In this document: in pieces, positions 2,738-61,091 of the stretch
How the letters are laid out: every line of letters starts with the position of its first letter
Position numbering within the stretch: the stretch's first letter is position 1
Assembly (NCBI RefSeq): GCF_019966495.1
Contig: NZ_JAIMIA010000007.1
Span: 1-64,000 of the forward strand
DNA length: 64,000 nucleotides
Direction of reading: 5' to 3'
Source: Tateyamaria pelophila
Lineage (GTDB): Bacteria > Pseudomonadota > Alphaproteobacteria > Rhodobacterales > Rhodobacteraceae
The notes under the pieces: model-generated
Told to the model about the DNA's origin: nothing
Database searches by the model: none
Seen by the model: the letters and a program-made list of their open reading frames with translations, nothing else
Program-made: the position numbers and the translations under genes

Positions 2738-3803
2738 AGTGGCGCCGATCGCTGTCGATACGCTTCGCGATTTTGTTGCCAGTGCGCTTGACTCGCGAGG
2801 TGTACCGGAAGCGGATGCCATCAAAGTGGCATCCTTGATGGTCGAAGCGGATATTTATGGCTACGGCACCCACGGGGTCTTCCGGTTGCGGCAGTATCTG
2901 GCGCGCCTTGCAGGGGGCGGTTGTAACCCGACCCCAACCATCAGGATCGCGCAGGAAACCGTCGCGACGGCCGTTATCGATGGCGATAACGGGTTGGGCC
3001 ACCTCGCCATGTCTGCTGCGCGCGACCTTGCCATTGAAAAGGCCCGCACCGCCGGGATCGGATGGGTCGGCGTACGACGGGGCAATCACGCGGGCCCACT
3101 GGCCCTTTACGTGCGCCCGCAAGCCGAGGCAGGCTTGCTTGGCATGGCCGCAGCCGTCGGCAGCGCAAATCACGTCCCGCCATATGGTGGCTCGGATCTG
3201 CTGCTTGGCACCAACCCGATTGCGTTTTCCGCCCCGGCGGACGGGCCGGACCCGTTTGTATTTGACATGGCGACGACGGTCGCCGCCATGGGCAAGATCA
3301 AGACGCTCCTGCAGCAAGGGGAACCAATGCCCGAAGGCTGGATGGTCGGGCGCGACGGCAACCCGCTGACCGATCCGGCCCGCAAATCCGAAGGGTTTCT
3401 CTTGCCGATTGGCGGACCGAAAGGCTTTGGCCTGTCCGTTGCCATTGGGCTTCTGGCGGGCGTGCTGAACGGTGCGGCTTTCGGTTCGGATGTTGTTGAT
3501 TTTACCTCTGATACGGCGTCGTCCACGAATACAGGCCAATTCGTCGTGGCGCTTGATCCGACGGCCTTTGGAATGGGAGACGACTTTGCCAGATCCGCGG
3601 CCCGGGTCTTTGCCGAAATGCGGGCATCGCCCCCGCTGCCGGGCCACGATCCGGTGCGCCTGCCGGGAGACGGAAAAACCGCTTTCGCGCAAGATCGCCG
3701 CCAGAATGGAATCATTCTCAAGCCCGCACTTCGTAGCGATCTGAACACGCTCGCGGCCGATTGCGGTCTGCCTGCGCCGTTTCCGCAAGAGGCGGCAGGC
3801 TAG
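2730..3803 (+). CDS. Ldh-family NAD(P)-dependent oxidoreductase
   Basis: A 357-aa member of the malate/L-lactate dehydrogenase (Ldh2, YlbC/AllD/ComC) family, unrelated to classical LDH. Family marks are YGTHGVFRLRQYL near residue 46, GDNGLGHLA, RRGNHAGPLALY, and the C-terminal GFGLSVAIGLLAG. These enzymes interconvert 2-hydroxy and 2-oxo acids. ATG 2730 gives the family-like N-terminus MAEVAPIAVDTLRDFV and overlaps the permease stop; an upstream in-frame start at 2694 would lie inside the permease gene. Context suggests it oxidises the imported compound or a product. The substrate (ureidoglycolate, sulfolactate, diketogulonate or another) cannot be read from the sequence. Confidence 0.82.
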   Translation: MAEVAPIAVDTLRDFVASALDSRGVPEADAIKVASLMVEADIYGYGTHGVFRLRQYLARLAGGGCNPTPTIRIAQETVATAVIDGDNGLGHLAMSAARDLAIEKARTAGIGWVGVRRGNHAGPLALYVRPQAEAGLLGMAAAVGSANHVPPYGGSDLLLGTNPIAFSAPADGPDPFVFDMATTVAAMGKIKTLLQQGEPMPEGWMVGRDGNPLTDPARKSEGFLLPIGGPKGFGLSVAIGLLAGVLNGAAFGSDVVDFTSDTASSTNTGQFVVALDPTAFGMGDDFARSAARVFAEMRASPPLPGHDPVRLPGDGKTAFAQDRRQNGIILKPALRSDLNTLAADCGLPAPFPQEAAG

Positions 3804-3822
3804 GACCGAAAACGTAGTAAAT

Positions 3823-3856
3823 ATGCCGCTGCCGATTTCGTGGTCGGCAACGGCAT
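3823..3856. terminator. Convergent stem-loop terminator candidate
   Basis: ATGCCGCTGCCGA (3823-3835) pairs with TCGGCAACGGCAT (3844-3856) around an 8-nt loop, a 13-position stem with one C/A mismatch. It lies between the convergent Ldh-family gene and the GlsB-like gene. There is no clean T-run, so a bidirectional rho-independent role is only probable. Confidence 0.55.
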
Positions 3857-3883
3857 GCTCTGCCCAGACACTACAGGTGCTCT

Positions 3884-4165
3884 TCAGACCTTCTTTATCA
3901 TCCTGATAATCACCAGAACGAGTGCGGCACCGATCATTGCCGAGATAACGGAGCCGAAAAAGCCGCTGCCAAAGCTCAAGCCAATGAGGGGCAAAACCCA
4001 GCTGGCCACGATTGCACCGCCAATCCCAAGGATCACGTTGCCAATAAATCCAAAACCGCCGCCACGCACGATTTTGCCGGCAAGCCAGCCCGCAAGACCA
4101 CCAATAATGATCGCAGCGATCAGGCCGGAAAACAGTGCGGGTCCCGCGTCAACAGATCCTTCCAT
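3884..4165 (-). CDS. GlsB/YeaQ/YmgE-family stress-response membrane protein
   Basis: A 93-aa glycine-rich membrane protein (transglycosylase-associated protein family). Three hydrophobic segments are visible: ALFSGLIAAIIIGGLAGWLA, FIGNVILGIGGAIVASWVL and VISAMIGAALVLVIIRMI, followed by a basic tail IKKV. The GWLAGKIVRGGGFGFIGN motif is characteristic of the family. In other bacteria, homologues are induced by general or acid stress, and their biochemical role is unresolved. It is monocistronic, convergent with the Ldh-family gene and tandem with the SDR gene on the same strand. Confidence 0.85.
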   Translation of the reverse strand: MEGSVDAGPALFSGLIAAIIIGGLAGWLAGKIVRGGGFGFIGNVILGIGGAIVASWVLPLIGLSFGSGFFGSVISAMIGAALVLVIIRMIKKV

Positions 4166-4311
4166 CAGTCAATTCTCCTCAGAATGATGTTTCAACCATG
4201 GTATCCGATGACTGTGTGGAACTGAATGCTTTTTCCATGGCAAATTCCGAACCGATCACGTCAGGCGGATGCTGAGCATGGCAAAGAAATTTCGGTTACG
4301 ACCGATGCGGC

Positions 4312-56031: not shown

Positions 56032-57156
56032 ATGTTGGAACACGGGCACAATCATTATCTGGTCATTGCGTCGCTGGCGGTCGCGCTGATGTCGGCCTTT
56101 ACCGGCTTGTCGCTGACCAAGGGTGCGTCGAGGATGCCCGTCGCGCGGCGCAAGGTCATCGTGTCGATGTCCGCTTTTGCCCTCGGGGGCGGCATCTGGT
56201 CGATGCATTTTGTGGCCATGCTCGGGATGACCTTGCCCGTCTCGTTCCACTACGACGCATTGGTGACGCTGCTGTCTGCGCTGGTCGCTATTTTGCTAAC
56301 GGGCCTCGCCCTGCTCTTTGTGCATTTCGGTGAACGCACGCCTTGGCGCATTTCACTGGCCGGGCTGTGCGCAGGGGTGGGAATTCTGGCGATGCACTAT
56401 ATCGGGATGTCAGGCATTCAGGATGTGGAGCCGGTTTACGCCACACTTGGCCTTGCGCAGGCCATTGTCGCCGCCCTTGTTCTGTGCGTCGTGTCCTTCT
56501 GGATCTGTTACAGCAAACGGGGCAGCCGCAATATCGTGATCGGGACGATCGTCTTTGGCGGGACAGTGTTTGCGGTCCATTTCATCGCGATGGCCGGGAC
56601 GCATTTCATCGAGATCGAAGGTGCTGCCTCATCGGGCCTTTGGCTCAGCAATGAGATGCTGGCCTTTGGGGTGACCTTTTCGGCCTTCGTGATATCGGGT
56701 GCATTCCTGCTGGTCGGTGTGACCTTTGCAGGCGACGTCGAGGCCCCGGCCAAACCCGCTGACGCCCCCGCGCCGGTGTCGACGGAAAGACCCCCGGTGG
56801 CACCGGAACCCGATGCGCCTGCACTGGTCAGGCTACCGTATGAAAAGAACGGACAAACGCATTTCGTCTCCCATGAAGAGGTTGCGGCCGTGCGTGCGGA
56901 GGGGCGGTATACGTTTCTGTATCACCCGACGGGACGCTTGTTCTGTCCTTGGTCCATCACGCTGGTGGAAGAACGCTTGGCGCAGGTGAATTTTCTGCGC
57001 TGTCACCGCAGTTATCTGGTCAACGTTGATCATGTCGCGAGTTTTGAGCGCAGGAAAGACAACGGCGTCTGTTTCTTTGACGGGTCTGCACATCTGGATA
57101 AGGCACCGGTCAGCCGGTCCTACCTAAAGCAGGTGCGCGCACGTTTCGGCATCTGA
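56032..57156 (+). CDS. MHYT-LytTR membrane regulator (CoxC-like)
   Basis: A 374-aa membrane-bound regulator. Residues 1 to about 235 form seven hydrophobic segments with three MHYT-type motifs: WSMHFVAMLGM, LAMHYIGMSGI and FAVHFIAMAGTHF. A proline-rich linker (about 240-270) leads to a C-terminal LytTR DNA-binding domain, about 275-374 (VSHEEVAAVRAEGRYTFLYH, FLRCHRSYLVNVDHVASFERR). MHYT domains are proposed to bind copper and sense diatomic gases. CoxC/CoxH proteins of Oligotropha share this layout and lie beside CODH genes (established). Its position before coxM argues for a CO-responsive regulator. The ribosome binding site is weak (AGAAAGAG). Confidence 0.85.
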   Translation: MLEHGHNHYLVIASLAVALMSAFTGLSLTKGASRMPVARRKVIVSMSAFALGGGIWSMHFVAMLGMTLPVSFHYDALVTLLSALVAILLTGLALLFVHFGERTPWRISLAGLCAGVGILAMHYIGMSGIQDVEPVYATLGLAQAIVAALVLCVVSFWICYSKRGSRNIVIGTIVFGGTVFAVHFIAMAGTHFIEIEGAASSGLWLSNEMLAFGVTFSAFVISGAFLLVGVTFAGDVEAPAKPADAPAPVSTERPPVAPEPDAPALVRLPYEKNGQTHFVSHEEVAAVRAEGRYTFLYHPTGRLFCPWSITLVEERLAQVNFLRCHRSYLVNVDHVASFERRKDNGVCFFDGSAHLDKAPVSRSYLKQVRARFGI

Positions 57157-57194: not shown

Positions 57195-57249
57195 ATACGC
57201 ACTTCGTTCAGGCTATGCGCATTTCGTGCGCAAACCCATGCATTTCAGG
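57195..57249 (+). promoter_or_regulatory. Phased direct repeats upstream of coxM, candidate LytTR binding sites
   Basis: ATACGCACTTCGT (57195-57207) and ATGCGCATTTCGT (57215-57227) agree in 11 of 13 positions. The core CAYTTC recurs at 57200, 57220 and 57241, spaced 20 and 21 bp, i.e. two helical turns. LytTR proteins typically bind direct repeats about 21 bp apart. The last repeat ends about 75 nt before the coxM ATG, a normal activator distance. Confidence 0.6.
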
Positions 57250-57320
57250 TCTTTGCGCTCGTCTCTGATACGAAGATTTTGCTGAATGCGTCGGAATACC
57301 GCAGTCAGGGAGGACAGCGC

Positions 57321-58175
57321 ATGATACCAGCCGCATTCGAATATCACCGACCATCCGACATCGCAGGCGCGCTGTCCGTGCTTGCCGAACACGGCGATGA
57401 CGCCCGTGTGCTGGCGGGTGGCCACAGTCTGATCCCGATGATGAAACTGCGCATGGCAGACGTGCCGCATCTGATCGATCTGCAGGATATCGATGTGCTC
57501 AAGGGGATCAAAATAGATGGAGGAACGGTCACCATCGGCGCAATGGTTACGCAGCACGAGATCATCGTCAGTGACGCGTTGTTTGCGGCAGCGCCCATCA
57601 TGCGCGAAGCAGCATTGCAGATTGCCGACCCGCAGGTGCGCTACATGGGTACCATCGGCGGGAATGTGGCCAACGGCGATCCGGGCAACGACATGCCCGG
57701 CCTGATGCAATGCCTGGACGCCAGTTTCGTTCTGGAAGGGGCGGACGGCACGCGGACGACGAAGGCGCGTGATTTCTACGAAGCCGCCTACATGACCGAG
57801 CGCGATGACGAAGAAATCCTGACCCATATCGTATTCGACGCCACAACGGCGGGCTACGCCTACGAAAAACAAAAGCGCAAGATCGGAGATTATGCGACGG
57901 CGGCCTGCGCCGCGCTGATCACCAAGGACGGCGATACGGTCGCCTCTGCTTCGATCTCGATGACCAACCTGAGCGATGTGCCCGTGTTTTCCGAAGCGGC
58001 GAATGCGGCGCTCGTGGGCACGACCTGCGATGCCGCCGCTGTCAAGGCGGCTGTTGCCGCTGCCTTGGAAGACATCGACCCGACCGAAGACAATCGCGGC
58101 CCCGTTGAATTCAAAATGCACGTTGCCGGGATCATCATCGCCCGCGCAATCGAGCGCGCCTGGTCACGGGCGTAA
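57321..58175 (+). CDS. coxM: Carbon monoxide dehydrogenase medium (FAD) subunit CoxM
   Basis: A 284-aa flavoprotein subunit passing electrons from the iron-sulfur subunit to the quinone pool. FAD-binding motifs are [17 protein letters not shown] (about 30-46) and [18 protein letters not shown] (about 108-125), both typical of CoxM. A CO_deh_flav_C domain follows, with [16 protein letters not shown] 57321 has AGGGAGG close upstream. It is first in the operon coxM-coxS-coxL-coxD-coxE-coxF, with a 13-nt gap to coxS. Confidence 0.93.
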
Positions 58176-58188
58176 GGGAGGAGAGATC

Positions 58189-58680
58189 ATGACAAAACAA
58201 ATCATCAAATTGACCGTGAACGGAGAAGAGCAGGAAGTGCTCGCCGAGCCACGCGAGTTGCTGATCTATGTGCTGCGCGAAAAGATGGGCATGAAGGGTC
58301 CGCATGTCGGGTGCGAGACATCCCATTGCGGGGCCTGCACCGTCGAGATGGACGGCAAGTCGGTAAAATCCTGCACGATGTTCGCAGCCCAGGCTCAGGG
58401 GGCCGAAATCACTACAATCGAAGGATTAGGAACGCCGGATAACCTCCACGTTTTGCAGGAAAATTTCAAGGAGCATCACGGCCTTCAATGCGGCTATTGC
58501 ACGCCCGGCATGATCACGCGGGCGCACCGTCTGCTTCAGGAAAACCCGAACCCGACCGAAGAAGAGGTCCGCTTTGGCATCGCTGGCAACATCTGCCGCT
58601 GCACCGGCTACCAGAACATCGTGAAATCCATTCTTTCGGCTGCCGCTGAACTGAATGCCGCCAAGGAGGCTGCGCAATGA
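58189..58680 (+). CDS. coxS: Carbon monoxide dehydrogenase small (2Fe-2S) subunit CoxS
   Basis: A 163-aa subunit with two [2Fe-2S] clusters. Plant-ferredoxin-type cysteines are C42, C47, C50 and C62 ([16 protein letters not shown]). The second cluster uses C101, C104, C136 and C138 ([16 protein letters not shown]). All eight ligands are present with spacing like CoxS of Oligotropha. GGGAGGAG is the ribosome binding site. It overlaps coxL by 4 nt. Confidence 0.95.
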
Positions 58681-61091
58681 AGGATGAAGTCACACGTGAC
58701 GACCGCGTCGCCAATCTCAAGGGCTTGGGCTGTTCGCGCAAACGGGTCGAGGACGCGCGCTTTACCCAAGGCAAGGGCAACTACGTCGACGACATGAACC
58801 TGCCGGGCATGCTGACGGGAGATTTCGTGCGCTCGCCCTATGCCCATGCGCGCATCACGTCGATCAACACCGACGCGGCCATGGCGCTGGACGGTGTCAT
58901 CGCGGTTCTGACGGCGAAGGATCTTGAGCCGCTAGGCTTGCATTGGATGCCAACGCTGGCGGGTGACAAGCAAATGGTCCTGGCAGACGGCAAGGTGCTG
59001 TTTCAGGGCCAGGAGGTTGCCTTTGTCGTGGCCAAGGATCGCTATATTGCCTCGGACGCGGTTGAACTGGTCGAGGTCGAGTACGAAGAGCTTCCCGTGA
59101 TCGTGGACCCGTTCGCATCGATGAAATCGGACGTCGTGCTGCGCGAGGATCTCGATCCAACCGCACCCGGCGCGCACGGGCCGCGCAAACACCACAACCA
59201 TATCTTTACGTGGGAAGTCGGCGACGAGGACGGCACCAACGCGGTCATTGACGACGCGGATATCGTGGCCGAAGAATCCATGTATTACCACCGCACCCAT
59301 CCGTGCCCGCTTGAACCCTGCGGCTGTGTTGCAAGTATGGACAAGGTCAACGGCAAGCTGACGCTGTGGGGCACCTTTCAGGCACCGCACGTGGTGCGCA
59401 CGGTTGCGTCTCTGTTGTCGGGCATCGAAGAACATAATATCCGTGTTGTCTCCCCCGATATCGGCGGCGGTTTCGGCAACAAGGTTGGCGTCTATCCCGG
59501 CTATGTCTGCTCCATCGTGGCCTCCATCGTGACGGGCGTGCCTGTCAAATGGGTCGAGGACCGGATGGAAAACCTGATGTCCACCGCCTTTGCGCGGGAT
59601 TACTGGATGACGGGCAAGATCTCGGCCACCAAAGAGGGCAAGATCACCGGGCTGCATTGCCATGTGACGGCCGATCACGGCGCGTTCGACGCCTGCGCCG
59701 ACCCGACCAAGTTCCCGGCGGGTTTCATGAACATCTGCACGGGGTCGTACGACATCCCGATCGCTTACCTGGGCGTGGACGGCGTTTACACCAACAAGGC
59801 ACCGGGCGGCGTGTCCTATCGGTGTTCGTTCCGGGTGACCGAGGCGGTCTATTTCATCGAACGGATGATCGAGGTTCTGGCCATCGAGATGAACATGGAT
59901 TCGGCCGAACTGCGCCGGATCAACTTCATCAAGAAAGAGCAATTCCCCTACAATTCCGCGCTTGGCTGGGAATATGACAGCGGAGATTATCACACCGCGT
60001 GGGACAAGGCCCTGAAAGCCGTTGACTATGAAGGACTGCGCAAGGAACAGGCCGAACGGGTCGAAGCCTTCAAGCGCGGCGAGACGCGCACGATCATGGG
60101 CATTGGCCTGAGCTTTTTCACAGAAATCGTGGGGGCGGGCCCGGTCAAGAACTGCGACATCCTCGGGATGGGCATGTTTGACAGTTGTGAAATCCGTATT
60201 CACCCGACAGGCTCTGCGATTGCGCGGCTGGGCACGATTTCGCAAGGGCAGGGGCATGCGACGACATTCGCGCAAATACTTGCCTCCGAGATCGGGATTT
60301 CAGCGGATAGCATCACCATCGAAGAAGGTGATACGGATACGGCGCCGTACGGACTTGGCACCTATGGGTCGCGGTCCACTCCGGTTGCTGGCGCCGCGGC
60401 GGCTATGGTCGGGCGCAAGATCCGTGCCAAGGCGCAGATGATTGCCGCCTATCTGCTTGAGGTCCACGACGACGACGTCGAGTTCGACGTCGATCGTTTT
60501 GTGGTCAAGGGCGCGCCGGAACGCTTCAAGACCATGGGCGAGATTGCCTATGCTGCCTACAATCAGGCCATTCCGGGGATCGAGCCGGGTCTGGAGGCGG
60601 TAAGCTATTACGACCCGCCCAACATGACCTATCCGTTCGGTGCCTATGTCTGTGTGATGGACATTGATGTGGATACGGGCGTGCCAACCATAAAACGCTT
60701 CTATGCGCTGGACGATTGCGGCACCCGGATCAACCCAATGGTGATCGAAGGGCAAATCCATGGCGGTTTGACCGAAGCCCTCGCTGTCGCCCTGGGCCAG
60801 GAGATTGCCTATGACGATATGGGCAACTGCAAGACGGGCACCCTTATGGACTTCTTCCTGCCAACCGCTTGGGAAGTGCCAAACTACGAGACCGATCACA
60901 CGGTGACACCCTCACCGCATCACCCGATCGGGGCCAAGGGCGTCGGCGAAAGCCCGCATGTGGGCGGCGTTCCGTGCTTTTCAAATGCGGTGCAGGATGC
61001 GTTCCGACCGTTTGGCAATCGTCACACCAACATGCCCCACGATCACTGGCGCATCTGGAAGACCGCGAATGATCTTGGTCTGCATGATTGA
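58677..61091 (+). CDS. coxL: Form I aerobic carbon monoxide dehydrogenase large subunit CoxL
   Basis: An 804-aa molybdopterin subunit that oxidises CO to CO2 at a Cu-S-Mo centre. The form I active-site loop is present as [14 protein letters not shown] with Cys383 as copper ligand, one residue different from the usual AYRCSFR (Ala to Ser at 380). The catalytic Glu758 lies in [27 protein letters not shown] and [12 protein letters not shown] are Mo-cofactor contacts. Both key residues sit 5 positions earlier than C388/E763 of Oligotropha CoxL. Form II (AYRGAGR) is excluded. Confidence 0.95.

Follow-up and report, generated by a model that had tools for sequence, protein, structure and literature searches.

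Phased direct repeats ahead of coxM as a probable docking site of the CO-sensing regulator CoxC in Tateyamaria pelophila

The direct repeats that precede coxM in Tateyamaria pelophila (Rhodobacteraceae) are very probably the DNA docking site of CoxC, the CO-sensing regulator encoded just upstream. Based on the comparison of coxC–coxM loci and on homology to CoxC of Afipia, we infer with a probability of roughly 0.88 that positions 57198–57251 are the operator of the CoxC homologue, whose grip on the DNA would be changed by CO, switching coxMSL. Positions refer to the window, the 64,000-nucleotide stretch that was analyzed (GCF_019966495.1, NZ_JAIMIA010000007.1:1–64,000, forward strand; Table 1). 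The presence of the boxes, their spacing, their conservation, their specificity for coxM and their tie to coxC are established by comparison between loci, and LytTR-domain binding and the sensing of CO with copper are carried over from the Afipia homologue (PMC11347149, in the passages considered here).

Table 1. Features of the coxC–coxMSL region (positions in the window; box scores from the matrix trained without the window).
Feature	Position	Strand	Remarks
coxC homologue	56032..57156	+	Pfam MHYT (9.3e-29) and LytTR (1.9e-18); ~32% identical to Afipia OM5 CoxC
Box 1, CGCACTTCGTTCA	57198..57210	+	9.0 bits
Box 2, CGCATTTCGTGCG	57218..57230	+	21.4 bits; 20 bp past box 1
Box 3 (weak), TGCATTTCAGGTC	57239..57251	+	-8 with the matrix, below threshold; 21 bp past box 2
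Inverted repeat GCGCAAA/TTTGCGC	57228..57258 (arms 57228–57234 and 57252–57258)	.	Not conserved
coxM	57321..58175	+	FAD_binding_5 and CO_deh_flav_C; first gene behind the putative operator
coxS	58189..58680	+	Fer2, Fer2_2
coxL	58677..61091	+	MoCoBD_1, MoCoBD_2, Ald_Xan_dh_C

The MHYT-LytTR gene that the original prediction had placed upstream of coxM is borne out by Pfam, with an N-terminal MHYT membrane sensor and a C-terminal LytTR domain (residues 275–372). The membrane part carries the motifs MHF at 58, MHY at 121 and VHF at 182; His is kept in all three, and Met and Tyr are missing from the third. coxC adjoins coxMSL with a gap of 164 bp to coxM, the start of which is preceded by GGGAGGA and lies 103 bp from the start of box 2. 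The order coxC–coxM–coxS–coxL is also found on plasmid pHCG3 of Afipia carboxidovorans OM5, and the genes past coxL resemble the Afipia order MoxR, VWA, XdhC (judged by position and by eye). The window CoxC shares 57–66% identity with relatives from other genera (G026, G408, L051 and L032) and 49–52% with those of its own; being closer to the former, it raises the possibility that the cox locus was acquired sideways.

The repeats can be read directly in the window where they had been predicted: CACTTC at 57200, CATTTC at 57220 and CATTTC at 57241, in steps of 20 and 21 bp, with 11 of 13 letters identical between ATACGCACTTCGT (57195) and ATGCGCATTTCGT (57215). CAYTTC is the core of the box CGCANTTCGTGCA. 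With a matrix trained without the window, 57218 outscores every other single site on either strand of the window (21.4 bits; next 12.8), and 57198/57218 is the best pair (score 30.4, against 3.2 for the runner-up among pairs that share neither box). By matrix score, box 1 falls short of what is usual in the family and box 3 does so most of all, and only box 2 retains TTCNNGC (TTCGTGCG); the position of box 3 at +21 and four of its six core letters fit the degenerate third box of the family. Single CAYTTC motifs are common, with 31 and 29 on the two strands (60 in total), as would be expected if the repeats were a chance pattern; the triplet with gaps of 14–15 bp nevertheless occurs once in 64 kb on both strands, and the only two CAYTTC pairs with such gaps are its halves. 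Among 24 perfect CGCANTTCGTG sites in the genome, the single one with a pair score above 10 is the coxM site (30.4; next 8.1); since this check was confined to the neighborhoods of perfect single boxes, it may overlook a target whose boxes are both imperfect.

Loci for comparison came from three sources: 33 of 101 relatives' genomes with MHYT-LytTR relatives at E ≤ 1e-3, from which the best 21 loci were taken; 97 of 394 family genomes at E ≤ 1e-30; and 53 of 80 further loci (L032–L083 and L101), the other 27 mostly matching the MHYT half at 27–35% identity. With the Afipia OM5 locus added there were 160 loci. In 146 of them coxM follows closely on the same strand, and 143 remain when identical 200-bp stretches before coxM are counted once; these loci are mutually related rather than independent, and the second and third sources may have some species in common. 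Between the end of coxC and coxM, GCATTTCG is present in 98 of the 143 loci, and the distances between pairs of TTCG[TC]G peak at 20 bp (27 pairs) and 21 bp (46 pairs), every other distance having at most 5. Training on the 142 remaining loci, with the window set aside, gave a matrix that converged on CGCATTTCGTGCA (141 of the 142 used); the 8-mer counts behind its seed did include the window. A looser genome-wide pattern, TTCGTG-N13-16-TTCGTG, was rejected as unspecific, with matches in 81 of 101 genomes.

Conservation of the repeats along with the gene pair, a check set beforehand, was found in 141 of the 143 loci, which carry a box pair 19–21 bp apart before coxM (19 bp in 3 loci, 20 bp in 67 and 21 bp in 71); the pair is missing from L021 and L075. 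At the same threshold, it occurs in none of the 143 stretches when reversed and in none of 141 stretches upstream of coxC; the latter leads us to reject the box pair as a device for coxC self-control. A chance origin of the repeats, set against the single triplet in 64 kb and against these controls, is ruled out for practical purposes. Among the 20 loci with a CoxC below 40% identity, 18 likewise have the pair. At +20/21, a third box matches at least 4 of 6 letters in 98 of 141 loci, the window included, and at least 5 of 6 in 34, compared with 4 to 31 loci and 0 to 6 loci, respectively, at non-overlapping control offsets; it is clear by eye in several distant loci (L071, L074, L077 and L083). 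In 105 of 141 loci the start of box 2 precedes that of coxM by 101–119 bp (median 111 bp); the spacing between the coxC end and box 1 is more variable, with a 10th–90th percentile range of 6 to 132 bp. Box 1 starts before the coxC stop codon ends in 33 of 141 loci (L010, L012, L014, L015, L017, L018 and others), so that the last coxC codons would form part of the gene's own operator.

The 14 loci dropped from the 160, either because no coxM turned up downstream or because the LytTR end could not be aligned, allow the boxes to be followed where coxC and coxM are apart. Five genomes concerned (G026, G337, G386, G354 and G245) were re-examined, and each of them carries the pair ahead of coxM. In three of them coxC lies away from coxM, at ~3.8 kb (G026), ~31 kb (G337) and ~14 kb on the other strand (G386, the genome of L057 by match position), and all three keep the pair before coxM (scores 40.0, 47.6 and 37.2, respectively); the coxC neighborhoods of G337 and G386 contain no pair scoring above 0, and that of G026 just one single site of at least 6 bits. 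G354 and G245, interrupted by a contig break, have the pair before coxM all the same (40.0 and 40.9). Among the other dropped loci, L066 likewise carries the pair ahead of coxM, L068, L079 and L063 have none on scanning, and in L076 a pair lies on the opposite strand; L159, L199 and L200 fell outside this further scan. L076, from an Afipia sp. MAG, has an MHYT-LytTR gene at 2947–4170 and no coxM nearby, and its array (L076:2540–2590, minus strand) lies ahead of a divergent ORF for a membrane-like protein of 226 aa, a possible target outside cox.

That another LytTR-type regulator, for instance one like RcoM, uses the boxes, with coxC as a mere neighbor, is improbable. The consensus does fit the RcoM sequence TTCNNGCA quoted in PMC11347149; yet CoxC is present in 96 of 101 family genomes with coxM (two lists compared by reading), and boxes and coxC occur together in 141 loci. 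Five genomes have coxM and no listed CoxC (G027, G142, G168, G161 and G412), three of them with an assessable locus, as the contigs of G161 and G412 end. G027 and G142 have no pair before coxM. In G168 (L288) a weak pair (14.3) precedes coxM and no MHYT-LytTR gene was detected, which speaks against a strict link between coxC and the boxes and in favor of another regulator, although a remnant or a missed gene are also possible readings. The LytTR proteins of G168 and G027, read by eye for hidden MHYT proteins, show no MHYT or obvious such sensor, which counts against both a concealed CoxC and an RcoM-like substitute; G142 and G161 have no LytTR match whatsoever.

The closest characterized system is that of Afipia, where CoxC is a membrane-bound, copper-dependent repressor of PcoxB that is relieved by CO, its LytTR domain binding three direct repeats and being released by CO with copper (PMC11347149). 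It was the only work on MHYT-LytTR control of cox genes recognized in an open-access search, most subscription papers being outside its reach; PMC6794299 makes no mention of MHYT, LytTR, regulator or promoter. As in Afipia, the window has an MHYT-LytTR regulator adjoining coxM and direct repeats, and phased boxes are also found in PcoxB. Unlike in Afipia, where the published operator precedes coxB and its repeats step by 29 and 26 bp, the operator in the window would precede coxM with steps of 20 and 21 bp; the two proteins also differ in their third motif (Val-His-Phe in the window, Met-His-Tyr in Afipia). Since the repeats are conserved and a homologue binds three repeats and answers to CO, the predicted reading as a LytTR site and CO switch is supported by locus comparison and homology.

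The published PcoxB repeats, as read from the mutated oligonucleotides of PMC11347149, lie at fragment offsets 15, 44 and 70. On the published fragment (L031:7172–7228) our matrix finds a pair of boxes, at offsets -2 and 19, that scores 19.1, and a third core coincides at offset 44 with published repeat 2; the substitutions made in published repeat 1 also strike the near-invariant CG of matrix box 2. The published repeats thus look partly out of register with the boxes of 20–21 bp period. Mutating published repeat 3 as well abolished residual binding (PMC11347149), and because this repeat lies outside the matrix triplet yet is needed for the last binding, it counts against the new register. 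Upstream of Afipia coxM (L031:10212–10264, pHCG3), CGTATTTCGTGCA, TGCTTTTGGTGAC and GATGTCTGGTGCG follow one another in steps of exactly 20 and 20 bp, with a pair score of 19.4; no pair scoring at least 9 occurs in reversed versions of the same 31 loci (~416,000 positions). This triplet, which goes unmentioned in the passages of PMC11347149 considered here, is likely a second CoxC operator.

RcoM1 of Paraburkholderia xenovorans binds a TTCNNGCA triplet with gaps of 12–13 bp at a cox target (quoted in PMC11347149), and the family consensus TTCGTGCA, with its 19–21 bp period, fits this RcoM-type sequence. The window resembles the RcoM1 operator in its triplet, its period of 20–21 bp and its cox targets, and also in the core, with TTCNNGC kept in box 2 only. 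RcoM differs in sensing CO through a heme domain and in being a reported activator; the window protein has only MHYT and LytTR domains, and no heme-binding sensor domain was found by Pfam before its LytTR domain. Compared with canonical LytTR sites as described in PMC11347149, the window has direct repeats about two turns apart in the same way, but an array of three in place of two 9-bp repeats, with a different core.

According to the proposed mechanism, the MHYT domain would hold copies of CoxC in the membrane, with their LytTR domains side by side on the CGCANTTCGTGCA boxes, one per two helical turns, on an operator of two strong boxes and one weak box ahead of coxM. When CO reaches the copper-dependent MHYT sensor, the grip of CoxC on the DNA would change and thereby switch coxMSL plus the genes behind. 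As no promoter could be placed, we infer the direction of the switch: CO would somewhat more probably lift repression here than trigger activation. The sigma-70 scan of the window found no promoter, the operator stretches across loci score 4.61 compared with 4.70 in shuffles, and these scans therefore placed no promoter at which overlap of the boxes with a -35 element, the geometry of a repressor, could be seen. With the promoter not found, activation stays a serious rival, if a less probable one: CoxC would recruit RNA polymerase from upstream of -35 when CO is present, as is described for RcoM. Most LytTR regulators, RcoM1 included, are activators that bind upstream of -35 (PMC11347149), and the boxes lie at a steady ~80–125 bp ahead of the coxM start; against this, the sole CoxC tested is a repressor (PMC11347149), and the missing promoter weighs on this side too. 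In 23 of 131 loci a YATGCA stands at exactly +59 relative to box 2, often with CTTCC, CTCCC or TTCCC at +67 to +70; the two could be a candidate -10 and start, or another site, and with YATGCA as -10 all boxes would sit upstream of -35, as activation would have it.

An inverted repeat overlapping the boxes had also been proposed as a second input. Its letters are present in the window where predicted, and this part of the prediction fails on comparison, although the LytTR site and CO switch keep their support: the perfect 7-mer repeat with this spacing is found in the window alone among 141 loci. If up to one mismatch per arm and any spacing are allowed, 26 of 141 loci have such arms, compared with 13.3 (sd 3.4) in shuffles, and the distances between them are scattered. 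A second input is accordingly rejected, and the inverted repeat is probably due to chance.

The type of operator is already known from CoxC of Afipia; beyond that case, the present analysis yields a well-defined consensus, a likely further operator in Afipia and grounds for re-mapping the one already published. We lean slightly toward a broader view, in which the phased CGCANTTCGTGCA triplet before coxM would be the main CoxC operator of aerobic CO oxidizers, Afipia included (with the PcoxB repeats partly out of register), and the membrane copper sensor CoxC and the soluble heme sensor RcoM would share one LytTR code, such that their sensor halves could be swapped on one operator. The findings suggest re-mapping the sole characterized CoxC operator together with the putative second one before Afipia coxM. 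Roseobacters oxidize CO in the sea, and a near-universal operator before coxM would offer a simple handle on when they do so, its sharp consensus allowing CoxC control to be read directly off genomes.
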